A stretch of 64,000 nucleotides of DNA. Source: Polyangiaceae bacterium. GTDB lineage: Bacteria > Myxococcota_A > Polyangia > Polyangiales > Polyangiaceae. The translations under genes and the position numbers were made by a program. The stretch covers positions 1-64,000 of the forward strand of contig CANJMI010000010.1 in NCBI GenBank assembly GCA_947475525.1, written 5' to 3'. The notes below the pieces were generated by a model. The model was not told the origin of the DNA and searched no databases. It worked only from the letters and a program-made list of their open reading frames with translations. The first letter of the stretch is position 1, and every line of letters starts with the position of its first letter. Shown here piece by piece: positions 17,958 through 34,413 of this stretch.

Positions 17958-19826
17958 TCAAGGGGCGGACGCGTTCGTCGGAGGCGGCGAGGCTCCAACG
18001 ACGCTCGGGGCCTCGGCCGGCGCAGGGTCGGCACCTTCGGCCGGGTGGCTCTCCGCTTTTGGGGCCGCTCGGTGGCAAGAACGCCGCTCTTCGGTGCACG
18101 AGGTAAGATCGCTGCGGCATGACTCGCGCGACTCGCTTGCGGCCGTGAGGGACGCTTCGCAGTTGGTCTTCGATTTCTTCAGCTCGTCGCGGTCGTGCTT
18201 CAGCTCGTCGCGGTCGCGTTTGATGTCGTCACGGTCCCGTTTGACATCGTCACGATCGCGCTTCAGCTCGTCACGATCGCGTTTGACATCGTCACGATCG
18301 CGCTTCAGCTCGTCACGATCGCGCTTGGTGTCGTCGCGGTCGCGTCTGATGTCGTCGCGTTCACCCACGAGCGTCGAGCGCTCGGTGCTCCACGCTTCGC
18401 TGCGCCCGGTCCACAGCGTCGCAAGCTCTCCCTTTTCCCGCGCGCCGTCCGAAGCGGTCTTCTCGGCGTCCTCGTGGCAGGTGTGCAACCTGAAGCGGAG
18501 AAGCTCGCTCTTGCGTTCGACGGCTTGCAGGGCGGACTCGCGCCCTTGGGAGATGTTGGTCATCGCACGCGAGTGCTCTTCTTCCGTCTCGCGGTGGTCA
18601 TCTTCGCAGCGTTCGGACTTTCGGCGCTCGAGCTCGTGAGACGCAATGCAGGTGTCGAGCTTATCGAACGACGCGGCGCCTTCGGTCCGTGCGCGCTGCA
18701 ATTCGCTCGCAAGACGCAAGGTCTCGCGCTTGGAAAACGTGTAGAAGCCGGCCGCCGCCGCGAGCACCGCCATCGCCCCAAGTGCAATGCGCACACGTTG
18801 GAAGGCGACTTGTTGCTTCGCGATGGCATTCTCGATTGCGAGTGCGGCTTCGCGTTCTTGTTCGAGGAGGACGTCGAGTTCCTCGGCCATCTCCTTAGCG
18901 GTCGCGCGTTCCGCGGGGTCGCGTTGCAGCCAGTGGCGGAGCGCGTCGATGAGCATCGCGCGTGGCGCTCCGGTGAGGTCTTCGAGCGCGTCGAGGGCCA
19001 AAGGCTGACGCTCGCGTCGCTCGAACCAGTTCGCGATCGCAAGCGGCGAGCTCGGCGGAGTGGTCGCTTCGGGCTCCTCGCCAACGAGTGCGCGCAGCAG
19101 GGTCGTCGCGAGGCAATAGGTGTCCATCCGCTCGGTCAGTCCCTGCACGCCGCCAAGGCCGGCGAGCGCCATCACCTGCTCGGGCGAGCCGTAGAGCACG
19201 GTGCCCGCGACGAACTCCGAGGTCTTTTCTACCGCGACGCCGAGGTCGAGGAGAACCGGGTAGGTCGTGTCGGAAAAGCGCGCGAGGAAGATGTTCTCGG
19301 GCTTGACGTCCTGATGGCGGAGGCCGCGTTCGTGGAGCGCTTGAACACCGCGCACGATGGGGACGAAAATGTCGTACGCCTCGCGTAAACACAGTGGTCC
19401 ACGCTCGAGCCGCTGCGCCAACGTCTCGCCTTCGTAGAGCGGCATCGTCAGCCACACGAAGTCCCCCGTCACGCCGTGATCCTTCAGCTGGACGATGTGC
19501 GGGTGGCTCGCCGCGGCGAGCATCGTAAGCTCCCTCTCGACGTTGCGGTTCTCGTAGACCGCATGCGTCATCACCTTGAGCGCGACGCGGTGCTCGCGAA
19601 CGTCGGTGCGCTCGGCCACGAACACGCGACCGAACATGCCTTCGCCGAGGCGCCGCACGAGGCGGTAGTGGCCCCCGATGATCGCACCTTCGTTGGGCAG
19701 CGCGTCACGCCGACGTGCTTCGCTTCCGTCCGAGCGCGTAGCCGTTCGGGCCTGCGTTCGCCGCACGTCACCCACGAGTGGGCGCTCGTCGGTCAGGCTG
19801 GTCTCGGGGGACTTCGGGCGGGCCAT
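17958..19826 (-). CDS. Ser/Thr protein kinase with membrane anchor and long heptad-repeat tail
   Basis: From the ATG at 19826 it has 622 residues. The kinase domain shows GEGMFGRVFVAE, VALKVM (ATP lysine), HQDVKPENI (Arg of HRD replaced by Gln, catalytic Asp kept) and LLDLGVA in place of DFG. An SPEQ activation segment follows. One membrane segment (IALGAMAVLAAAAGFYTF) leads to a coiled-coil region with tandem RDRDDVK/RDRDELK repeats and scattered cysteines. The C-terminus is Pro/Ala-rich. This is a Hanks-type kinase with a probable periplasmic sensor tail. HQD and DLG suggest altered activation but not loss of catalysis. Confidence 0.87.
   Translation of the reverse strand: MARPKSPETSLTDERPLVGDVRRTQARTATRSDGSEARRRDALPNEGAIIGGHYRLVRRLGEGMFGRVFVAERTDVREHRVALKVMTHAVYENRNVERELTMLAAASHPHIVQLKDHGVTGDFVWLTMPLYEGETLAQRLERGPLCLREAYDIFVPIVRGVQALHERGLRHQDVKPENIFLARFSDTTYPVLLDLGVAVEKTSEFVAGTVLYGSPEQVMALAGLGGVQGLTERMDTYCLATTLLRALVGEEPEATTPPSSPLAIANWFERRERQPLALDALEDLTGAPRAMLIDALRHWLQRDPAERATAKEMAEELDVLLEQEREAALAIENAIAKQQVAFQRVRIALGAMAVLAAAAGFYTFSKRETLRLASELQRARTEGAASFDKLDTCIASHELERRKSERCEDDHRETEEEHSRAMTNISQGRESALQAVERKSELLRFRLHTCHEDAEKTASDGAREKGELATLWTGRSEAWSTERSTLVGERDDIRRDRDDTKRDRDELKRDRDDVKRDRDELKRDRDDVKRDRDDIKRDRDELKHDRDELKKSKTNCEASLTAASESRESCRSDLTSCTEERRSCHRAAPKAESHPAEGADPAPAEAPSVVGASPPPTNASAP
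18174..18360 (-). repeat. Tandem 21-bp repeats coding KRDRDEL/KRDRDDV
   Basis: About nine direct repeats of roughly 21 bp in the kinase gene encode seven-residue units alternating RDRDDVK and RDRDELK. This would form a highly charged coiled coil and is prone to copy-number change. Confidence 0.8.
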
Positions 19827-19960
19827 AATGGGTCCAGTGGCGAGTGTAGGCCAATGTAGGTAGTTGGTAAAACTTTGCGGGGACCGTGGTGGCGCTTGGG
19901 GGGCCTCGGCAGGTTCGGAGACGCCCCCGGGGCGCCAGGCGTGGTACAGATGCCAGGTCG

Positions 19961-20491
19961 ATGCGCGCCCCCGCCGTCCTCGCTGTCTTTGTCGCTTGCG
20001 CAGTCTATTTGGCTGCACCTTCGCTCTCAGCGCACGGACCGCGGTTATCCCCTCTTCGCCTGACGCCCCACAGCGCGCCGAGTCCGATCGAGGGCACGTT
20101 GTCGGGGTTGCCGGCGGGGCCCATCAAGCGGCGGCTGCTCGATCTTCGCGAGTTGGCTCGCATCAAAGCCGTCGAACCGGAGGCTTATGAGCCGGCGCTT
20201 CGCGAAGCGGTTCGGGCGATGGAGCGGGCCCGTGGCGCGCGCGCCGCAGGGGATGCAAACCATGCGGGCATGCTCGAGCGGGTCGCGGGTGAATGGGCAC
20301 GCGTGGCCGAGCAATCGACCCTCGCGCGAATCGCCGAGAGGGCGTCGCTCGTGGCCGAGAAGGCCGCCAAAGACCTGGCCGAACGCGCCGAACGCGCCCG
20401 AACTTTGCTCGAAGAGAACCAAGCCCGTCGAGGTCGACTCGAAGCTCAGCGCATGCAAGCGGAAGCCCGGAAACCAAGGAACTCCCCTTGA
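19961..20491 (+). CDS. Exported coiled-coil protein, first gene of an envelope operon
   Basis: The ATG at 19961 starts a signal peptide (APAVLAVFVACAVYLAAPSLSA). The mature part is about 150 residues, mostly charged helix (LLDLRELARI, REAVRAMERARGAR, and repeated AERASLVAEKAAKDLAERAERA). It overlaps the next gene as TTGA. Family not recognised; a periplasmic coiled-coil scaffold or partner of the next lipoprotein is plausible. Confidence 0.65.
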   Translation: MRAPAVLAVFVACAVYLAAPSLSAHGPRLSPLRLTPHSAPSPIEGTLSGLPAGPIKRRLLDLRELARIKAVEPEAYEPALREAVRAMERARGARAAGDANHAGMLERVAGEWARVAEQSTLARIAERASLVAEKAAKDLAERAERARTLLEENQARRGRLEAQRMQAEARKPRNSP

Positions 20492-24099: not shown

Positions 24100-24834
24100 T
24101 CAACGCACGAAGCGGTACACCTTCGCGGGCTTCGTGCCTGTTCGGCGTTTGCCTGGGGCCGACGCGATGAGGCCGTCATCCTGCATGCGTTCAACGCGGC
24201 GGCGAAAGTTCGCGGCGTCGAGCGACTCACCGCGGATGGCTTCGAACACCTCGCGGAGCTCACCTATCGTGAACGTCGGCGGCACAAGCTCGAACGCCAC
24301 CGTGCTCGTGTCGAGGCGCGAGCGCAGCCGGAGGAGGGCGGCATCCAGAATCTCTCGGTGATCGAACGCGAGCTCGAGGCGTGTCACTTCCTCGGCGACG
24401 GAGAACCATCGGGCATCGGCCGCATCGGTCCCGGCGCGCAACACGGCTTTGCCTTTCACGGCGAGTGTTCCGCGGAGTTCGGGATCGAGCAGGGCACAAT
24501 AGGCGATGCTGATCACACGGCCGCGCGGGTCACGAAGGGGCGCGCCGAATGCACCGAGCTGCTCGAGATAGATCGAGTCACTGGCGAGGCCCGTCTCCTC
24601 CGCGAGTTCGCGTCGTGCTGCGGCATCCAGCGTTTCTCCGCGCTGCGTGCCCGATTCGTCTACGCGAACGAAGCCGCCTGGCAACGCCCACGACCCTGCG
24701 AAAGGCGCCTCCCCGCGCCGGATGAGGAGCACCTTGAGGTCCGTATCCACAACCGTCACGAGCGCGACATCCACCGTCACCGCGGGTCGCGGATAGGCGT
24801 AGGAATGCTTCGCTGCAGGCTTCGCCTTGGTCAC
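24100..24834 (-). CDS. nrtR: NrtR-type Nudix-wHTH transcriptional repressor of NAD metabolism
   Basis: The GTG at 24834 overlaps the upstream stop (GTGA). The Nudix domain (VDVALVTVVDTDLKVLLIRRG, then GGFVRVDESG...RRELAEETGL) has a few extra residues in its Nudix box. A C-terminal winged helix follows (FTIGELREVFEAIRG, NFRRRVERMQDDG, KVYRF). Known NrtR proteins bind ADP-ribose or related NAD metabolites with the Nudix fold and repress NAD genes. It is the fourth gene of an operon starting with a nicotinamidase-like gene, and two operator-like repeats overlap that operon's promoter. Confidence 0.88.
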   Translation of the reverse strand: MTKAKPAAKHSYAYPRPAVTVDVALVTVVDTDLKVLLIRRGEAPFAGSWALPGGFVRVDESGTQRGETLDAAARRELAEETGLASDSIYLEQLGAFGAPLRDPRGRVISIAYCALLDPELRGTLAVKGKAVLRAGTDAADARWFSVAEEVTRLELAFDHREILDAALLRLRSRLDTSTVAFELVPPTFTIGELREVFEAIRGESLDAANFRRRVERMQDDGLIASAPGKRRTGTKPAKVYRFVR

Positions 24835-26561
24835 GCGCGGGAGCTCAACCGGTACACGACGTCGCCGTGGAAGGCCAGCACGGAGCCCGCGGTTTGGGCG
24901 AGCTGCAGCACCCCTAGTCGAGGGTCAGCGATGTGGCGCAGGGTGAGCGAGCCTGGGGCCGCCGCGAACACGTCGATCGGCGCGGCTCCCGTGCGGCACA
25001 ACGCCACACCCGAATCGAGCACGACGAGCTCGAGCTCCCCCGGATCGATGTCGCGTGTCCAGCGCACGTCGTGTGAACCATCCACCTCCGAGACGCGGAC
25101 GACCACGCGGTGACGCAATCCGCCTTCCGCCACGATCAACACGACCACGTTGGCCTCCGAGCGCGCGTCGAGCACGCGGTGGCCATCGAGCTCCGCTACG
25201 TGCACCTGACGGCACCCAGCTTTTCCGCCGAAGAGCGCGAGGTACGTCGCACCGAGCAGGCTCTGCACGGCCACTCCATCGAAGACGCGCGTCGCACGAG
25301 GCAGCACCTGAGCGAGCACCGTGGGAGTCACTATCACCGTTGGTCCGACCTCGCGCAGGCCGAGCTCGACGAGCGTGTCACCTATCTGCGCGACGAGCCT
25401 CCCCCCGCCGAGTCCGAGCGCTTCGATACGACCCGGAGGCTCGATGTCGAAGCCACCTCCGACATCGCGTAGGGTGAACCGACCCGCGTCCTCTGTCGCG
25501 AGCACGGGTCGCGCGAGTCGGGGCGTGAAGGCCACCCATCGCCTCGCTTTTCCGGCTTCGCCGATGCGCCGACCCGTCAGCGTGAAGAGTCCACTCGTGG
25601 TGTCGGCGACGGCGTCGCCCGCGTGGGTCCCGAAGACCCGTACGATTGGCGAAGGTAGGGTGACCAGCGTCTCCAAGGTGACCCCGTGCGCGGTGCCCGA
25701 GATGACGTGGAGCGGGGGCGAGATGCAAGCGCGACTCGACGCTCGCTCCACATGGGTGAAGGCCGGTGGCGGCCCGCGCTCGCCATCTTGCAGCACAGCT
25801 CGCAGGTAATCGTGAAGGGCCACGGGGAGCTCACTTAGGGGCAGCGCGACGGGCGGCAACGTGACGTTCGGATCGAATGCGCTCAGGTGGCTCGCCATGC
25901 GCGAGGACAGCGAGCGGATGGTCGGGTGCGTTCCACGATAGGGGTGAACCCCCACAAAAAGCTGGAAAGCGAGGACGGCGAACGCGAACCAGTCGGAGCC
26001 GCGGCTAAACGTCGGCGCGTCATCGGGACCGTGCACGCGCGTCGTTGGGCAGCGGATGGCGGGGGTTATCGCCGAAGCGGGATAGGAGCGTGTCTGGTAG
26101 CTGTCGGTGTCGATGGCATAGACGTGGCGGAACTGCCTACAGACGAGAAAGTTCATGTCGTTCGCGTCTACGATCAACGCGTCGGCCGCGTGCACCGCGA
26201 GAAAGAGTTCCCGCAGGCGGTCGATGAGGCCGAGCATGGCCCCCTCATCGAGGCCGTGCCTTTGCCTACATACCGGAGCGGTGAGCTCGCCGAGTGCTCG
26301 CACGCCTGCCAGGTACCGCATCGTGTAGCCGATCGCTCGGCCGCTCTTTTCGTCCTGCAAGAGCGCATCCGGCAACATCACGTCCGGATGCGCGATTCTT
26401 TGTAGCTCCTGCAATTTACCAACCGGAATCATCGCGCTCGGGTCCGTGAAGACCTTGTAGGCGACGTCCCCTTTCGCATAGACCCGCGCCTGTCCGCCCT
26501 CGGCGACGAAGTCACTTGGCTGGAGAGTGACCGGACCCTGACCGCGAACGATGACTTTCAC
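24831..26561 (-). CDS. Protein-kinase-like protein of the TerY-P type with C-terminal beta-rich domain
   Basis: The 576-residue protein has a kinase fold: EGGQARVYAKGDVAYKVF, then VDANDMNFLV as catalytic loop (Asp and Asn) and AIDTDSYQ in place of DFG. This loop form is known from kinases paired with VWA proteins in Ter-type stress systems (DxNxxNxLV..DTDS). From about residue 290 the sequence becomes beta-rich, with no repeat I can name. It follows the VWA gene by 36 bp and overlaps nrtR. No PP2C phosphatase is present, unlike the usual triad. Function and substrate unknown. Confidence 0.75.
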   Translation of the reverse strand: MKVIVRGQGPVTLQPSDFVAEGGQARVYAKGDVAYKVFTDPSAMIPVGKLQELQRIAHPDVMLPDALLQDEKSGRAIGYTMRYLAGVRALGELTAPVCRQRHGLDEGAMLGLIDRLRELFLAVHAADALIVDANDMNFLVCRQFRHVYAIDTDSYQTRSYPASAITPAIRCPTTRVHGPDDAPTFSRGSDWFAFAVLAFQLFVGVHPYRGTHPTIRSLSSRMASHLSAFDPNVTLPPVALPLSELPVALHDYLRAVLQDGERGPPPAFTHVERASSRACISPPLHVISGTAHGVTLETLVTLPSPIVRVFGTHAGDAVADTTSGLFTLTGRRIGEAGKARRWVAFTPRLARPVLATEDAGRFTLRDVGGGFDIEPPGRIEALGLGGGRLVAQIGDTLVELGLREVGPTVIVTPTVLAQVLPRATRVFDGVAVQSLLGATYLALFGGKAGCRQVHVAELDGHRVLDARSEANVVVLIVAEGGLRHRVVVRVSEVDGSHDVRWTRDIDPGELELVVLDSGVALCRTGAAPIDVFAAAPGSLTLRHIADPRLGVLQLAQTAGSVLAFHGDVVYRLSSRA

Positions 26562-26597
26562 GATGACCCTCCTTCTGCGCCCGAGAACGTGCGCCCT

Positions 26598-27323
26598 TCA
26601 GAACGTCAGCTGCACAGAAGCCTTCCCGGAGCCAAGCGCGAGTGACTGCGCGTAGACCGAGCGGGAGACAAAGTCGGCGAGCTTCGCCAACGTGTCGGTG
26701 TCCGCACACCCAAGCTCGACGTACCGCGTGAACCCCGCGTCTTTGTGAAACGCCGCGAGGTAATCCGCCATCCGCGGCTCTTGCACGTTCACCCCGACGA
26801 GCACCGACGTGAGCGACTCGAGGGTCTCCGTCTCGACTGCCGCTTTGAGCGCGTCACGGACGTCCGGCCCCAAGGCGCGCGACCCGTTGTCTTCGCCGTC
26901 GGTGATGACGAACAGGATGCCGTTGACGTTGAAGTTCGCCTTCGACAGGTGCTTGCCGTAGCCGGCGAGTGCGGTCGCCCCATTGTGCGCCCCGTCGAAG
27001 AGCGCGGTTCCGCCGCCATGGGTGAGACACCCGTCGTACGCCGCAAGCGGGCACTCGGCGAGGGGCTTGAAGCCGTGGAGCTCGTGGACGGCCGAGTCGA
27101 ACGTGGTGACGCGCAGCATCAGGTTGTCGGCGCGAGGCGAGCTCCTCGAGGCCCGCACGACAGCCCCGATGCAGCGCTCGATCTCCGCGCGGAAAGGCTC
27201 GACGCTCGGGCTCGAATCGGCCGCGATGGTGACGAGCGTGTACTCCGCGGCGCCGAGGTCCGCGATGCGTTGCGCCGAGAATCCGTAGTGAGAACCGTTG
27301 ATGCCGAAGCTTTCGAGAGACAT
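26598..27323 (-). CDS. VWA-domain protein (TerY-like)
   Basis: From the ATG at 27323 the 241-residue protein is a single von Willebrand A domain with an intact MIDAS set: DSSPS (DxSxS), the Thr in GGGTALFDG and Asp in FVITDGEDNGS. TerY-type cytoplasmic VWA proteins have this size and no signal peptide. It is 36 bp before the kinase gene and 71 bp after the nicotinamidase-like gene. It probably binds a metal-dependent partner, perhaps the kinase. Confidence 0.83.
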   Translation of the reverse strand: MSLESFGINGSHYGFSAQRIADLGAAEYTLVTIAADSSPSVEPFRAEIERCIGAVVRASRSSPRADNLMLRVTTFDSAVHELHGFKPLAECPLAAYDGCLTHGGGTALFDGAHNGATALAGYGKHLSKANFNVNGILFVITDGEDNGSRALGPDVRDALKAAVETETLESLTSVLVGVNVQEPRMADYLAAFHKDAGFTRYVELGCADTDTLAKLADFVSRSVYAQSLALGSGKASVQLTF

Positions 27324-27394
27324 GACTGGGGCTCCTGGTTCAGGTGATGAAGGTCCGGTTTTTGTGGGGAACGTTTTTGTTGTCGCGGGTCCAA

Positions 27395-28213
27395 TCAAAC
27401 GGTGAGGACGAAGTCTTTCGTGGTGCTCGTGCGCATGCCACGCAGCACAAGCTCCCGAAGGAACGCGTCACCGTAGTGGTCGAAGCCGCCGACGTTGCTC
27501 GATGCGTCCGTGAGGAGCACGAGCTTGGAGACGTACTTCGGATCGACGAACCGGTCGGCGATGTCGCGCACCGTGTTCGCAAGGCAGTGCGAGAGCGCCT
27601 CGCCCGCGAGGAGGATCACGTCGGCGTCTTCGAGCGTGTTGATGAGGGCCGTGTTGACTTGGGTCGTTGGGTCCTCGGGATCGGGCACCTCCGCTTGGAC
27701 GGCGGAGAAGTGCTCGGTCCACGGGTTCGAGCCTTTGGTAACGAATTGCGCCATCGCGAAGCGGTCTTCCCAGACGTGCACCGCGTCCGCGAGCTTCTTC
27801 CAGACGTTGTGCCCGCTGTCACCTATCAGGCAGTGGTAGGGCCAGATGACGTGTGGATAGCGACCGTTGACCGAGAGCGCGCGGAGGTACGCGAGCGTGC
27901 GCTTGTAGGCACTCGGGCGGGTCGTCGTCCACGTGCCCTTCTCGAGGTCCTCGGCCGTGATCACGGTGAACGCACCGGGGTGCGCGCCACGCGAGTCCTG
28001 AAACCAAATCGGATGGGAGATGTCGACCTTGCGATGACTGTCGAGGGTGATGTGGATGCCCGTGAGCCGCTCGCGCAGCCGGTCGACGAGCATGGCCACT
28101 CGGTCCATGTCGCCTTCCGCGCCTTTCACGTAGAGCGACCCGTTCGGGTCACAAAAGTCATTCTGCGGATCGATGACGAGCAGGTGAATCTTTGGAGTTT
28201 CGGTGAACGTCAT
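27395..28213 (-). CDS. Isochorismatase-fold cysteine hydrolase, nicotinamidase-like
   Basis: The 272-residue protein has LLVIDPQNDFCDPNGSL (catalytic Asp), TLDSHRKVDISHP (metal-type DSH) and GEALSHCLANTVRD with the catalytic Cys. This matches the nicotinamidase/isochorismatase family and suggests nicotinamide to nicotinate, the first step of NAD salvage. Its length exceeds PncA (about 210), with an insertion around 130-190. It heads the operon with NrtR, which supports an NAD role. Substrate specificity is inferred. Confidence 0.8.
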   Translation of the reverse strand: MTFTETPKIHLLVIDPQNDFCDPNGSLYVKGAEGDMDRVAMLVDRLRERLTGIHITLDSHRKVDISHPIWFQDSRGAHPGAFTVITAEDLEKGTWTTTRPSAYKRTLAYLRALSVNGRYPHVIWPYHCLIGDSGHNVWKKLADAVHVWEDRFAMAQFVTKGSNPWTEHFSAVQAEVPDPEDPTTQVNTALINTLEDADVILLAGEALSHCLANTVRDIADRFVDPKYVSKLVLLTDASSNVGGFDHYGDAFLRELVLRGMRTSTTKDFVLTV

Positions 28214-28244: not shown

Positions 28245-28289
28245 AAGGTGCTTATGACCTTATTATGGTTCTTGAGACCTTTCTGTCAA
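28245..28289 (-). promoter_or_regulatory. Sigma70 promoter of the nicotinamidase-nrtR operon with two operator-like repeats
   Basis: On the minus strand TTGACA (28289-28284) and CATAAT (28267-28262) are 16 bp apart, a near-consensus promoter 50-75 bp before the first ATG at 28213. Two 17-bp direct repeats, AAGGTGCTTATGACCTT (28245-28261) and ATGGTTCTTGAGACCTT (28265-28281) in plus orientation, match at 13 of 17 bases. Each has AGGT/GGT...ACC half-sites and they start 20 bp apart. They cover the -10 box, the spacer and the likely start site. Autorepression by the NrtR-like product is inferred. Confidence 0.6.
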
Positions 28290-30568: not shown

Positions 30569-31519
30569 TCAGCGGTGCGGGCCGGCCGGTTTTCGCTCCG
30601 ACCGGTTGGGCCACTCGGCACCGAATCGCGTGACACCTGCGAGTTCGCGCGCGGCCGTGTTCCGTACGAAGGCGAAGCTACTCTGGACGTCGGGCTCCAC
30701 CGGTGAGCGCAGAGCTTCAGCTCTGACATACTCGAGCACGGTCATGAGGCTGCCTTCGTTTGCGAGCAATTTGTGCAAAAACGCTTGAGCTGGACAATGG
30801 ATCCGCAGATCGCTTGCCGACTCGGCGCCTGAATCTTCGCGCGCAGTCCAAGTGAACGCGCCTGACTTGTCGAGCAGCGTGACGGCCTCGACGATCAGAC
30901 TCTGGTCAACCTCGAACGTCTCGAGTCCGCTGCGCCGCGTTCCACAAACGTAGAGGGCGAGGTTCATGAATTTCAGGACGTTCTTCGGTAACCACTGGAC
31001 CACGAAGGGCCCAAGCGTCGCCTCCGCGCTCGGGGAATACCGCCCCGCGAGCGTCCCGAGTGCAGCGGCGAACGTATGAATGAGATCGACCAAGTGGGCG
31101 AGGGCAACGGCAACGTCGGGCTCACGTTGGTTCCAACGCAAGCACGCGAGCACTTCGGCCTGCGTGAACTTTTTCACCGGATGCGCACGGCGTGTGCTGG
31201 CGTCGGCGCCGGCAAGTCCTTCGTCGATCGTGAAGCCGGGCACAAGCTCGCCTTCGTCGATTCGCGGCAGGATGCGCGTGCTGCACGCATGCTCGATGAA
31301 CCCGTGGAGTACCCCCGGTGGCATCAACCGTTCCGTGGCGGTGATGAAGGCGTGGGAGGCGACGTCGATCTCCCGTTGCGACACCGTAGCGCCCTGGCGG
31401 AGCGCGAAAAAAAGGCTCCGATTGCACATCGCCCCGAGCTCGGCATCGAGCGTGCTTGCATCGAGCCTAGCCGCGATGGCATCCATGCAGCGTAGAAACT
31501 CGGGCGCGTCCGGCGTCAC
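30569..31519 (-). CDS. Uncharacterised protein translated after TssM
   Basis: The GTG start overlaps the tssM stop (GTGA), so the two are coupled. The 316 residues are mainly helical with no signal peptide or membrane segment and no motif I recognise (patterns such as FLRCMDAIAARLDA, VLACLRWNQREPDVAVALAHLVDLIH, LKFMNLALYVCGTRRSG). Coupling suggests a partner of the TssM-like protein. It could be a divergent T6SS accessory factor, but no sequence evidence shows it. Confidence 0.6.
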   Translation of the reverse strand: MTPDAPEFLRCMDAIAARLDASTLDAELGAMCNRSLFFALRQGATVSQREIDVASHAFITATERLMPPGVLHGFIEHACSTRILPRIDEGELVPGFTIDEGLAGADASTRRAHPVKKFTQAEVLACLRWNQREPDVAVALAHLVDLIHTFAAALGTLAGRYSPSAEATLGPFVVQWLPKNVLKFMNLALYVCGTRRSGLETFEVDQSLIVEAVTLLDKSGAFTWTAREDSGAESASDLRIHCPAQAFLHKLLANEGSLMTVLEYVRAEALRSPVEPDVQSSFAFVRNTAARELAGVTRFGAEWPNRSERKPAGPHR

Positions 31520-34413
31520 TGGATGACCGTGGGCAGCTTGATCTTTCCGCCCACGTTGAGCGGCGCCATCAGCAACGGCAAGAGCGCCGACTGTGCGAGT
31601 TGGTCCTGTGGTTTCAGGAGCGCTTCGGCCTGCGTTACGGTCTTGTTGAGGTCGAGAATGACGGCGTTCACGCTGACGTCGCGCTGCGTCTGTTGTGCTG
31701 CGAGCATCTTTTGCTTCAGCGTGTTCAAGAGCTCCATGTAGGCCGAGAGGGGCGTCTCATTCAGCGGATTTCGGCTCGCCTCGGGAGGCACTCCGAACGA
31801 CACCGCGCTCTTGAAGGTCGCGGGTACCTTGCTCAGTTTCCCTGCGATTTTGTTGACGTCCAAGTTGAACCGAAGGCCCGTCTTGGAAGCGAGCGTTTGG
31901 TTTAACTTCTGGTTCGCAATCTTGCTCGTGCGTTTGTCGTCGAGCGCAGACAGCGGTTTTTTCCATTGGGTATGATCTTCGAGAGCCCGCAAGATTCGCA
32001 GATATGGCCACTCGGGGCGCCGCAGACCACCTTGCTCGTCGCCGTACAATTTGACCGCCTCATCGACGGTGTTGGGCGACTTGATGCGGATGTCCTGAAG
32101 GAACCCCTTCCACGCGGCGATGTAATTCAGCTCGTAATCGTCGGCGAGGAGCGCGACGTTTCGGGCAACCTGATCGCCTTGCTCTTCGGCAGTCAGCGGG
32201 ACGACCCACTGTTCGCGCTCGAGCAGATCTTTCGCGGACTCGATGTTCGAGAGCACGGCCGCGTGCCCCTTGTCCGTGTAAGGGCCGCTTACGGAATAAT
32301 AACCTTTGCCGCTCTCGTTCTGCGCGCTCCGGAGCCAGCCGGTGACCTCTTTGCGGTCGCTGAACATGGCGTCGAGCGACACTGGCGGAAAACGAAGGTT
32401 GCCGCGGATGGCGTCCTCGGAGTCGTCGTAGAGCTCGACCTCAATCGTGTCGATGAACATGGCGAGGTAGCGTTTGCGCACGGGCACCGCTTGGAGCGCC
32501 TCGCGTGCGTGCTGGACGATTTTGTCGTTCGCCGGGACTGGACGGGCGCGCGCTTTGTTGTCGCGATCGGGATCGGGCTTGATGAGCTGGAAGTAATAGA
32601 GAAGATGCGGCTGCATCCGCTTCTTCAGGTCGATCATCGAGATGTCGTTCGTGGACTTGTTGATGTCCGACCACAGCGCGGTGTAACGCCCCGCGGCGAA
32701 GGCGACGTCGAGGTGCTCGATGTCGCTCAGCATCAAGTACGTCTTCAATTTCAAGCGCTCGTGGGCGTACTTTTCCCCGGCGACCGCGCTGAGCTCGCTC
32801 TCGAGCTTGAACTTCGCCGGCGAGACGAACCCCTTCTGCATGTTGAAGATGTAGGCCGCGACGAGCTTCGGGTAGATCTCCTCGCCGGAGTACATCAAGA
32901 AGCGCTTTCCGAAAGGCACTCCGTCCTTCTGGTAGGACTCGAGCTCTTCGAGGGTCTTGCGCAAAGGCTCGAGCGCTTCGAGCTTGGCGCGCACCGGTTC
33001 GGAGCGATTGTCCCAATCGATCTTCATCGCCACTTCGGCGCGCTCTTTCGCCACGTTCAAGAGCTCCCGGTTGTTGAAGAAGGAGAGGACGCTCGGGATA
33101 GCGAACGTGAGCGCGAGCGCCATGGCCGTCACGCCGACGCCGATGCGCACGAGGCGTTGGCGGCGGATCTCGGAGATGCTCCGCGAGGCAACTTCAGCAT
33201 CCGGAAAGACGATGCGCGTGAAGACGTCGTAGAGGAAATAGCTCTTCGATTCGAGACGCGCCTCTTGCACGTACTGCTGCGGCGCGATCCCCATCGCTTG
33301 GCCCATGCGCGAGAGGACGCGGGCAAGTGGCGCGCCTTCCTGAGTGCCGCTCGTGAAGTAGAACCCGCGGAACGTGGGCGTGCCCTGGAACGCGTTGACC
33401 GTGAAAATCTGCGAGAGGAGGTCGGCAAGGTTCCGGCGAATCCCGGCGAACTCGAGCGGAAATCCGTAGATGACCTCACGTGCGCGGCGGTCGCGCTCGG
33501 TCGCGAGGCGCTTCAACCCGCGGCCGTGGACCTGCTGGACCATGAGATCGAATTCGCGCGAGAAGATCGCGCCCGGGTCGCGGCGGTCAGCGTTGAGCGG
33601 GATGGTCGCGCCGAGAGCCTGGGAGCGGTCGCTCTTGCGAAGGTCGCCGAAGAACTCGTTGAAGCCCGCGATGAGATCGCACTTCGTGATGATGACGTAG
33701 ACCGGCAGCACCATGCCGAGCTTCGTCATGACCTCGTCGATGCGGGCTCGGAGTTTCTTGCCCATCGACTCGAGCTGCGTGTCGTTCGCGTCGATGATGT
33801 CCGGCACGCTGATCGCGACGATGAGCCCGTTGAGCGGCTTTTCGCTGCGGTATTTGCGCAGCATATCGAGGAAGGCGAGCCACTCGCTCTGGTCCTCGTG
33901 TTCGGTCGTGTAGCGACCCGCTGTGTCGAGCAGGATCGCGTCGTTGGTGAACCACCAGTCGCAGTTGCGCGTCCCACCGACGCCACGGACGCTCGAATCC
34001 GCGTAGGGAAACTGCAGGCCGGAGGCCTTGAGTGCGGTCGTCTTGCCTGCGCCCGGGGGACCTATGATCGCGTACCAGGGGAGCGAGTAGAGCGCCGAGC
34101 CTCCGCGCTTTTTTCCGCCGAGCTTGCTCGATTTAAGAGCGTTGATGCCGTCGGTGATCTGCTTCTGAAGCGCCTGTATTTCGGCGCGCTTTTGCGGACT
34201 CGCGTTCGCCTCTTGTTGGCGCGCTTGCTCGGCGAGCGCCCGTTCGAGCCCTCCAGCCGAGCGATTCGCGCGGATGCGTTGGTAGAGGAACGTGCCGAGC
34301 GCGATGAGCAGGATCAGACCGGTGGCGGTCAGCGTGATCCAAAGGCTCCACTGCAGGATGAAGCCAAGTGCCCAAACGAAACCGGTGACCAGCGCAAACA
34401 GGACGTAAATCAC
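31516..34413 (-). CDS. tssM: TssM/IcmF-type membrane protein, orphan
   Basis: The 965-residue protein starts at GTG 34413 with two membrane segments, then a Walker A (IIGPPGAGKTT), a DTAGR motif and a large cytoplasmic ATPase-like domain. A third membrane segment (about 425-450) precedes a long extracytoplasmic part ending in a C-terminal beta domain. This is the IcmF/TssM layout; family members often reach 1100-1200 residues. TssM forms the membrane complex of type VI secretion. No other tss gene is in this window, so it may serve a distant cluster or another role. The gene follows sucCD and a 233-codon gene. Confidence 0.85.
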   Translation of the reverse strand: MIYVLFALVTGFVWALGFILQWSLWITLTATGLILLIALGTFLYQRIRANRSAGGLERALAEQARQQEANASPQKRAEIQALQKQITDGINALKSSKLGGKKRGGSALYSLPWYAIIGPPGAGKTTALKASGLQFPYADSSVRGVGGTRNCDWWFTNDAILLDTAGRYTTEHEDQSEWLAFLDMLRKYRSEKPLNGLIVAISVPDIIDANDTQLESMGKKLRARIDEVMTKLGMVLPVYVIITKCDLIAGFNEFFGDLRKSDRSQALGATIPLNADRRDPGAIFSREFDLMVQQVHGRGLKRLATERDRRAREVIYGFPLEFAGIRRNLADLLSQIFTVNAFQGTPTFRGFYFTSGTQEGAPLARVLSRMGQAMGIAPQQYVQEARLESKSYFLYDVFTRIVFPDAEVASRSISEIRRQRLVRIGVGVTAMALALTFAIPSVLSFFNNRELLNVAKERAEVAMKIDWDNRSEPVRAKLEALEPLRKTLEELESYQKDGVPFGKRFLMYSGEEIYPKLVAAYIFNMQKGFVSPAKFKLESELSAVAGEKYAHERLKLKTYLMLSDIEHLDVAFAAGRYTALWSDINKSTNDISMIDLKKRMQPHLLYYFQLIKPDPDRDNKARARPVPANDKIVQHAREALQAVPVRKRYLAMFIDTIEVELYDDSEDAIRGNLRFPPVSLDAMFSDRKEVTGWLRSAQNESGKGYYSVSGPYTDKGHAAVLSNIESAKDLLEREQWVVPLTAEEQGDQVARNVALLADDYELNYIAAWKGFLQDIRIKSPNTVDEAVKLYGDEQGGLRRPEWPYLRILRALEDHTQWKKPLSALDDKRTSKIANQKLNQTLASKTGLRFNLDVNKIAGKLSKVPATFKSAVSFGVPPEASRNPLNETPLSAYMELLNTLKQKMLAAQQTQRDVSVNAVILDLNKTVTQAEALLKPQDQLAQSALLPLLMAPLNVGGKIKLPTVIQ

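Follow-up and report, generated by a model that had tools for sequence, protein, structure and literature searches.

Introduction

Two known themes, TerY-P phospho-signalling and the rebuilding of nicotinamide adenine dinucleotide (NAD) by phages, meet in the locus analyzed here, a four-gene operon in a 64,000-nucleotide stretch of a Polyangiaceae genome (contig CANJMI010000010.1, positions 1 to 64,000; hereafter the window). The TerY-P triad, for which Anantharaman 2012 is reportedly the founding paper, combines a von Willebrand A (VWA) protein, a PP2C phosphatase, and a protein kinase, and in plasmid operons of Sphingobium, Sinorhizobium, and Rhizobium its genes follow the order VWA-PP2C-kinase. 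Passages of two papers report it as active against T7-like phages (PMC7699616, PMC11090510), and those of the second describe triad kinases with a zinc ribbon or an oligonucleotide-binding (OB) fold. Our operon and its relatives belong to the same three protein families but come with a nicotinamidase-like gene, joined in many loci by NAD genes; the window copy is also without PP2C, and its kinase carries a beta-rich tail.

Phage-encoded NAD salvage runs through NadV, NadM, and NadR (of the KVP40 type), and NARP1 and NARP2 are phage NAD-rebuilding systems. The phage NAD section (3.6) of a 2022 survey names NadV, NadM, and NadR (PMC9503650); there, and in passages of PMC7824862, such rebuilding is proposed to counter NAD-depleting defence. 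Relatives of our operon likewise encode NAD rebuilding in phages but, unlike NadV and NARP salvage, use a deamidating route (PncA-like hydrolase, PncB, and NadE) together with a VWA/PP2C/kinase unit and an NrtR repressor. Since the term nicotinate phosphoribosyltransferase appears in the searchable text of several jumbo-phage papers, that enzyme alone is not new in phages. The 2022 survey, in the parts that concern them, also describes ARG-vWA-Nudix TF systems, for which a role against viral ADP-ribosylation is predicted and in which a vWA protein and an NrtR-like Nudix repressor share a neighbourhood as they do here; these are built on an ADP-ribosylglycohydrolase, however, and that description includes no nicotinamidase or protein kinase (PMC9503650). 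Finally, NrtR regulons of NAD salvage, like our operon, set a repressor with Nudix and winged-helix domains next to an NAD gene, whereas the operator found here appears confined to its own operon.

Among titles and the opening lines of abstracts, we found no paper joining a nicotinamidase with a TerY-P triad, although Li et al. (2024, Microbiome), whose subject is the NAD systems of jumbo phages from the gastrointestinal tract, may already have described part of the NAD genes. Word searches returned no "nicotinamidase," "PncA," "NadE," "PP2C," or "TerY" in the portion of the 2022 survey covered (PMC9503650) and no "NAD," "nicotin," or "kinase" in the portion covered of the main text of Al-Shayeb 2020 (PMC7162821). 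Within this scope, TerY-P triads and phage NAD salvage are each known, and the joined cassette is a new combination. We read the operon as a unit of the TerY-P kind that is tied to the nicotinate route to NAD and is common to bacteria and jumbo phages.

Results

The operon comprises four minus-strand open reading frames (ORFs) running in one direction, in the 5'-to-3' order HYD, VWA, KIN, NrtR, with a predicted promoter and two putative operators upstream:

27395 to 28213, minus strand: HYD, nicotinamidase-like cysteine hydrolase of the isochorismatase fold, 272 amino acids (ORF, Pfam, alignment, AlphaFold2 model)
26598 to 27323, minus strand: VWA, TerY-like von Willebrand A protein with metal ion-dependent adhesion site (MIDAS) residues (likelier start ATG at 27323; longer ORF from TTG at 27398)
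24831 to 26561, minus strand: KIN, whole ORF, 576 amino acids
25737 to 26561, minus strand: KIN kinase domain, residues about 1 to 275 (alignment, kinase fold at Z about 20, profile match to triad kinases)
24834 to 25682, minus strand: KIN beta-rich C-terminal tail, residues about 294 to 576, probable beta-propeller (predicted strands, BFVD match)
24100 to 24834, minus strand: NRT, Nudix plus winged helix, NrtR/AraR-type repressor, 244 amino acids (Pfam, NCBIfam)
28262 to 28289, minus strand: predicted sigma-70-type operon promoter, TTGACA-16-CATAAT, 11 of 12 consensus positions
28267 to 28279: putative operator palindrome 1, GGT-N7-ACC, overlapping the promoter spacer
28247 to 28259: putative operator palindrome 2, GGT-N7-ACC, 20 bp from palindrome 1

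An initial annotation, made from the window alone, had described four co-directional genes at these places; the ORFs bear this out, and Pfam recognized the domains of HYD and NrtR. The VWA protein probably starts at ATG 27323 rather than at TTG 27398, since the proteins of its relatives start near the former. Only 36 bp separate VWA from KIN, which leaves no room for a phosphatase gene, so the window operon lacks the PP2C member that a TerY-P triad has within its operon.

The hydrolase gene travels with TerY-P genes in bacteria

We surveyed 192 genomes of the class, of which 58 carried HYD and 73 carried KIN (a count that includes weak kinase matches). Forty bacterial loci, namely the window and wider DNA around HYD from 39 of the 57 other HYD genomes, were then searched with iterated profiles. 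On the HYD strand and within 4 kb, VWA was present in 33 loci, KIN in 32, PP2C in 25, and NrtR in 13; VWA and KIN were both near HYD in 31, and of the nine loci without both, some are truncated at contig ends or divided (L119, L127, L146, and L147). PP2C counts come from one profile (PPA), a second (PPB) having been dropped when it drifted into hydrolase and VWA frames. Relatives of the window showed the order HYD-VWA-PP2C-KIN(-NrtR), while a second branch, at 33 to 40% HYD identity, showed (NrtR-)PP2C-KIN-HYD-VWA(-NrtR). That the members stay together despite a changed order argues for a functional link.

PP2C was missing in the window and in the genomes G180 and G126. The initial annotation was thus right that the phosphatase is absent at this locus, but its idea that NAD genes replace the phosphatase does not hold, as most relatives retain a PP2C gene and the loss is limited to the window sublineage and some others. 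The window genome as a whole gave nine PP2C matches.

The contig that carries the window is 203 kb long and belongs to a genome of 5.15 Mb. The G+C content of the operon (0.655) is close to that of the window (0.650), and G180, a genome of the same genus, has the operon in identical order between the same flanks (cyclophilin, thiL, a VWA lipoprotein, and TssM), with identities of 51% for KIN, 67% for VWA, 77% for NrtR, and 84% for HYD (flanking genes, 56 to 78%). The operon is therefore resident rather than a fresh insertion, and the match in order and flanks, together with recurrence in other bacteria and in phages, puts the gene set beyond chance. The TssM (IcmF) gene of a type VI secretion system lies at 31516 to 34413, on the same side of the operon in G180. 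A kinase module linked to type VI secretion was considered and rejected: elsewhere, the triad and NAD genes are what is conserved, and proximity to TssM, seen within the genus, is read as local synteny.

A further set, the named-genome loci, comprised the best 80 of 553 HYD relatives; the closest HYD among the matches listed came from a Polyangia metagenome-assembled genome (MAG; 75%). Phage contigs caught in a bin may account for some of the named MAG contigs. In six loci (L203, L205, L206, L218, L222, and L231), HYD adjoins a divergent NrtR without the triad, as in an ordinary-looking salvage unit, and an RtcR regulator gene lies near L203 and near three other genome loci. A distant HYD (31%) on an 882-kb Vibrio parahaemolyticus plasmid (L071) stands beside RNA ligase and potassium channel genes; no VWA or KIN was found there by profile within the 16.8-kb stretch.

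Jumbo phages carry the same cassette

The viral set consisted of 86 IMG/VR loci from two scans (the second taking the best 80 of 132 relatives) and four GenBank phage-collection records; these 90 loci reduced to 75 with distinct HYD. The window HYD shares 72% identity with a protein encoded on a 424-kb IMG/VR contig (G192), and 66, 54, and 37% with proteins from three huge-phage GenBank records. VWA, PP2C, and KIN were each near HYD in 71 of the 75 distinct loci, and all three lay on the HYD strand within 10 kb in 68. A scan of viral contigs with a single KIN protein confirmed none; the divergence of KIN probably puts it beyond the reach of such a scan. A survey of genomes for the gene set, as the initial annotation had proposed, thus shows that the genes are adjacent well beyond this one genome. 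The link it had drawn between NAD salvage and a TerY-P-like VWA/kinase pair is conserved in 31 of the 40 bacterial and 68 of the 75 viral loci, a PP2C gene is present in most loci (25 of 40 and 71 of 75, respectively), and the jumbo-phage side had been missed.

Among 39 large viral records, Pfam hallmarks identified a terminase (PF03237) in 11, a tail sheath in six, and a terminase C-domain in five. Such tests are insensitive to divergent phages: G192 was negative by Pfam, whereas PHROGs found its TerL, along with a portal protein, RIIA, topoisomerase II, and DNA polymerase (10 of 70 listed ORFs searched). Part of the viral records, including the contig of the closest viral relative, are thus tailed phages, and the rest are viral according to IMG/VR or the depositor. 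In a FastTree phylogeny of 193 HYD rows, phage and bacterial rows were interleaved, with 23 changes of the viral label on the tree as built and seven forced by well-supported (starred) branches; the window HYD fell in a starred set of 29 rows made up of 17 bacterial rows, 11 viral rows, and itself. HYD has moved between bacterial and phage genomes repeatedly, for the window in one direction or the other.

Genes that build NAD cluster with the hydrolase

Neighbouring families were surveyed in 170 viral and named-genome loci, duplicates included. An NAD synthetase recurred near HYD in 28 viral and seven genome loci, and a nicotinate phosphoribosyltransferase (NAPRTase) in 18 viral and 13 genome loci. 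NCBIfam cut-offs were passed by L190 and L103 as NAD synthase and by L211 as PncB (L103 is viral; L190 and L211 are MAG contigs). The 39 large viral records contained NAD synthetase in 29, the NAPRTase family in 25 (18 strong matches and seven weak, two of the seven below cut-off), and both in 23. Within 10 kb of HYD there were 17 NAD synthetase and 11 NAPRTase-family genes, against 2.4 and 2.1 expected under uniform placement, and none of 20,000 simulations reached 17 or 11. These neighbours, and the NrtR repressor, point to NAD.

PRPP (phosphoribosyl pyrophosphate) synthetase and ADP-ribosylglycohydrolase were also among the HYD neighbours, as was Nuc_deoxyri_tr2 in some loci. One 618,736-bp IMG/VR contig (L238) combines the cassette with NadE, a weak NAPRTase-family gene, and an ADP-ribosylglycohydrolase gene. 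A 208-amino-acid protein (L111:18014-18637) recurs on the same strand in 15 viral loci, a median of 5.5 kb downstream of HYD; tried as a NadD, it was rejected because it matched a phosphoesterase family (phrog_547). On a Variovorax megaplasmid, HYD has Nudix, macro, and NAD kinase genes nearby, and profiles also identified VWA and NrtR there; PP2C, KIN, and pncB stand in a row about 21 kb from HYD. AlkB, RecX, macro, Nudix, NAD kinase, RNase HII, and peptidyl-tRNA hydrolase genes surround the cassette parts on the 801-kb plasmid of Variovorax sp. SRS16 (L069 and L312); the content of the megaplasmid gives the impression of a jumbo-phage-like replicon. The window genome has one NAPRTase-family match, located elsewhere in the genome.

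That the genes recurring near HYD serve to make NAD, not to break it down, bears on a different explanation, in which the triad is an anti-phage TerY-P module with altered NAD metabolism as its output, and jumbo phages use the cassette against other phages or host defence instead of for NAD repair. The reported activity of the triad against T7-like phages and the interleaving of phage and bacterial HYD rows would suit such a role, and one phage KIN weakly matched the PADLOC model PD-T4-6 (17.8 bits, E 4e-4). Among ten cassette proteins, however, that match and one of NrtR to PDC-S07, also weak, were all that PADLOC returned, and we saw no nuclease, NADase, or pore in the conserved part of the cassette. 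We regard a defence module as unlikely, though a serious contender.

The hydrolase resembles nicotinamidases

HYD matched the Pfam isochorismatase family (PF00857) at 29.3 bits, above the cut-off of 27. Against the NCBIfam nicotinamidase model PRK11609 it scored 31.8 bits, far under the cut-off of 174, and we therefore call it nicotinamidase-like. D15, K160, and C210, which we take by analogy with PncA to be the catalytic triad, and D58, H60, and H127, presumably the metal site, were invariant in 30 of 30 aligned rows. The AlphaFold2 model (predicted local distance difference test score, 95.9) had nicotinamidases or pyrazinamidases as its 13 best matches in the Protein Data Bank (PDB; Z 24.2 to 19.1), with other isochorismatase-fold enzymes following from Z 19.1 downward. 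From these features we infer nicotinamidase activity.

The low model score, and the long insertions that some rows of the alignment carry, would also be expected if HYD were an isochorismatase-fold amidase for some other substrate, such as an ADP-ribose-linked or nucleotide signal, that the triad, as a signalling unit, uses as an eraser; some loci do lie near ADP-ribosylglycohydrolase, Nuc_deoxyri_tr2, macro-domain, or Nudix genes. The nearest structures are nevertheless nicotinamidases and pyrazinamidases, the aspartate/lysine/cysteine set and a WPxH stretch are kept, and PncB and NadE, the users of nicotinate and of its product, cluster with HYD. Another substrate therefore seems to us quite improbable.

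The VWA protein and kinase are TerY-P-like

Neither VWA nor KIN had a Pfam match at E 0.01. Profiles of VWA, PP2C, and KIN, however, matched all three genes of the annotated VWA-PP2C-kinase operons on the Sphingobium, Sinorhizobium, and Rhizobium plasmids, at E about 1e-8 for the three VWA proteins and, in keeping with a Ser/Thr kinase, at E 3e-32 to 9e-38 for the three kinases. The MIDAS residues D61, S65, T131, and D167 were invariant in 22 of 22 aligned VWA rows, in keeping with the complete motif read in the initial annotation. The VWA C-terminus (26598 to 26700) ends in a conserved Ser-rich tail, approximately SISxQSQALGxGGxSQSLxF, in phages and near bacterial relatives; it is a possible phosphorylation or binding site.

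In KIN, K36, D132, N137, and D151 were invariant in 28 of 28 aligned rows, and the model adopts a protein kinase fold, the Foldseek matches listed from the PDB being kinases (Z about 20). The beta-rich tail noted in the initial annotation was recovered as 28 predicted strands over residues about 294 to 576, compatible with a seven-bladed propeller. The best BFVD match, a myovirus kinase, aligned over most of the KIN length (E 1.9e-28, TM-score 0.40, 596 alignment columns), and there was a further match to a COG3391 protein; as the BFVD alignment ranges are not given, the modelled tail is probably, rather than certainly, a beta-propeller. No Pfam zinc ribbon was found in the window KIN, whose tail was covered within whole-protein searches, whereas the Sphingobium triad kinase has one at its C-terminus. 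Because the canonical triad kinases matched the KIN profile over the kinase domain only and the Variovorax KIN matched it end to end, the beta-rich tail marks the NAD-linked branch in the material compared. Elsewhere in the window, 17958 to 20018 encodes what appears by eye to be a second kinase-like protein, which has a hydrophobic stretch and a long tail of RDDVKRDRDE-type repeats.

The repressor and paired palindromes at the promoter

NRT contains both a Nudix domain (PF00293, 69.1 bits) and an NrtR winged-helix domain (PF21906, NrtR_WHD, 56.4 bits), each above its cut-off. Against the NCBIfam NtrR equivalog (NF050029) it scored 152.5 bits, under the cut-off of 400, so we call the repressor NrtR-type and do not assign it to that equivalog. 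Related NrtR proteins sense ADP-ribose, according to the relevant passage of PMC9503650, and this one would presumably do the same.

The predicted promoter was found once, against a mean of 0.1 in 50 shuffles. The two GGT-N7-ACC palindromes, at 28247 and 28267, are spaced by exactly 20 bp and overlap it, an arrangement that arose in one of 20,000 base-composition shuffles of the window upstream sequence. The same doublet with the same 20-bp spacing occurs upstream of HYD in G102, while G180 has one palindrome site and G126 none in exact form. As predicted from sequence, paired palindromes over a promoter would fit an autorepressing NrtR, and since the exact doublet occurs in just two places in the 5.15-Mb genome, NrtR seems dedicated to its own operon.

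An operator that looks specific to the operon would equally suit plain bacterial NAD homeostasis, that is, an autoregulated salvage operon in which VWA and the kinase are leftovers, perhaps phage-derived, with no present role. The missing PP2C in the window, G180, and G126 and the position of KIN as the most diverged operon gene within the genus (51%, against 67 to 84% for the others) could be taken the same way. Decay of this kind is hard to reconcile with an intact KIN frame, with kinase active-site and MIDAS residues that are kept, or with the persistence of VWA and KIN together in the bacterial loci, and we consider leftovers very unlikely.

Discussion

Together, these results favour a mobile NAD-repair cassette of bacteria and jumbo phages, in which an NrtR-controlled nicotinamidase is joined to a TerY-P-type phospho-switch; taken as a whole, we put the chances of this interpretation at about even. 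Several findings weigh against it. The window operon itself is without PP2C. Only 24 of the 80 named-genome loci have VWA and KIN (19 of these also PP2C), and in 38 HYD has none of the four other genes within 10 kb, some of these being short contigs, so HYD is not always paired with the triad. NrtR is present in a minority of loci (13 of 40 bacterial, 17 of 75 viral, and 24 of 80 named-genome). To the low score of HYD against the nicotinamidase model can be added that eight of the 39 large viral records have neither NadE nor an NAPRTase-family gene, that the rates of NadE and PncB were taken from HYD-bearing viral records, a scan for terminase relatives having returned the query contig only, and that no NadD was identified in the HYD loci or large viral records. 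As for the operator, the doublet with one mismatch allowed occurs in 16 genome places, against seven for a reversed control pattern, and any site was found upstream in seven of 48 NrtR-bearing loci, compared to 13 of 165 without NrtR nearby. A general NrtR box across the relatives was rejected on these last counts, and the operator claim is therefore confined to the window operon and G102; the motif's absence from most NrtR-bearing relatives is expected if the box diverges between lineages, yet it limits the claim.

For an NAD-repair cassette, the following mechanism can be proposed. HYD would deamidate nicotinamide to nicotinate and so feed the Preiss-Handler route of four steps; many of the relatives in phages carry PncB and NadE of their own for it. 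NrtR would repress the operon at the paired promoter palindromes and be released as ADP-ribose rises. Cleavage of NAD by NADases yields nicotinamide and ADP-ribose, so the cassette would switch on during NAD destruction and recycle the nicotinamide that is freed. A phage could thereby rebuild NAD against NAD-depleting immunity, and a bacterium could restore it after stress or a defence response. Recycling of nicotinamide under NrtR control when NAD is cleaved is moderately supported.

The nicotinamidase or its partners would be tuned, or assembled, by a phospho-switch of the TerY-P type consisting of VWA, PP2C, and the kinase. VWA may act as a metal-dependent scaffold, and the triad may set nicotinamidase activity by reversible phosphorylation; that HYD is what the phosphorylation acts on, and hence that it controls the nicotinamidase, is our inference. 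The sensing of NAD loss and the response by phosphorylation that the initial annotation had suggested are likewise hypotheses. In the window sublineage, which is without PP2C, dephosphorylation might fall to another cellular PP2C or might not occur. A more specific proposal is that jumbo phages and bacteria trade an undescribed NAD-rebuilding switch, in which NADase-released ADP-ribose lifts NrtR, nicotinamide is recycled through the phage nicotinate route, and the VWA/PP2C/kinase-propeller unit acts as a phospho-toggle within one infection. In that full form the idea is tentative, and we hold it to be somewhat doubtful.

The cassette links TerY-P phospho-signalling and phage NAD salvage, two separate known themes, in one unit shared by bacteria and phages. 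Its composition suggests that phages have a deamidating route to NAD beside the NadV route and NARP. Triads of the TerY-P type thereby gain a concrete metabolic partner, and their obscure output becomes testable, for instance by asking whether the kinase acts on the nicotinamidase.

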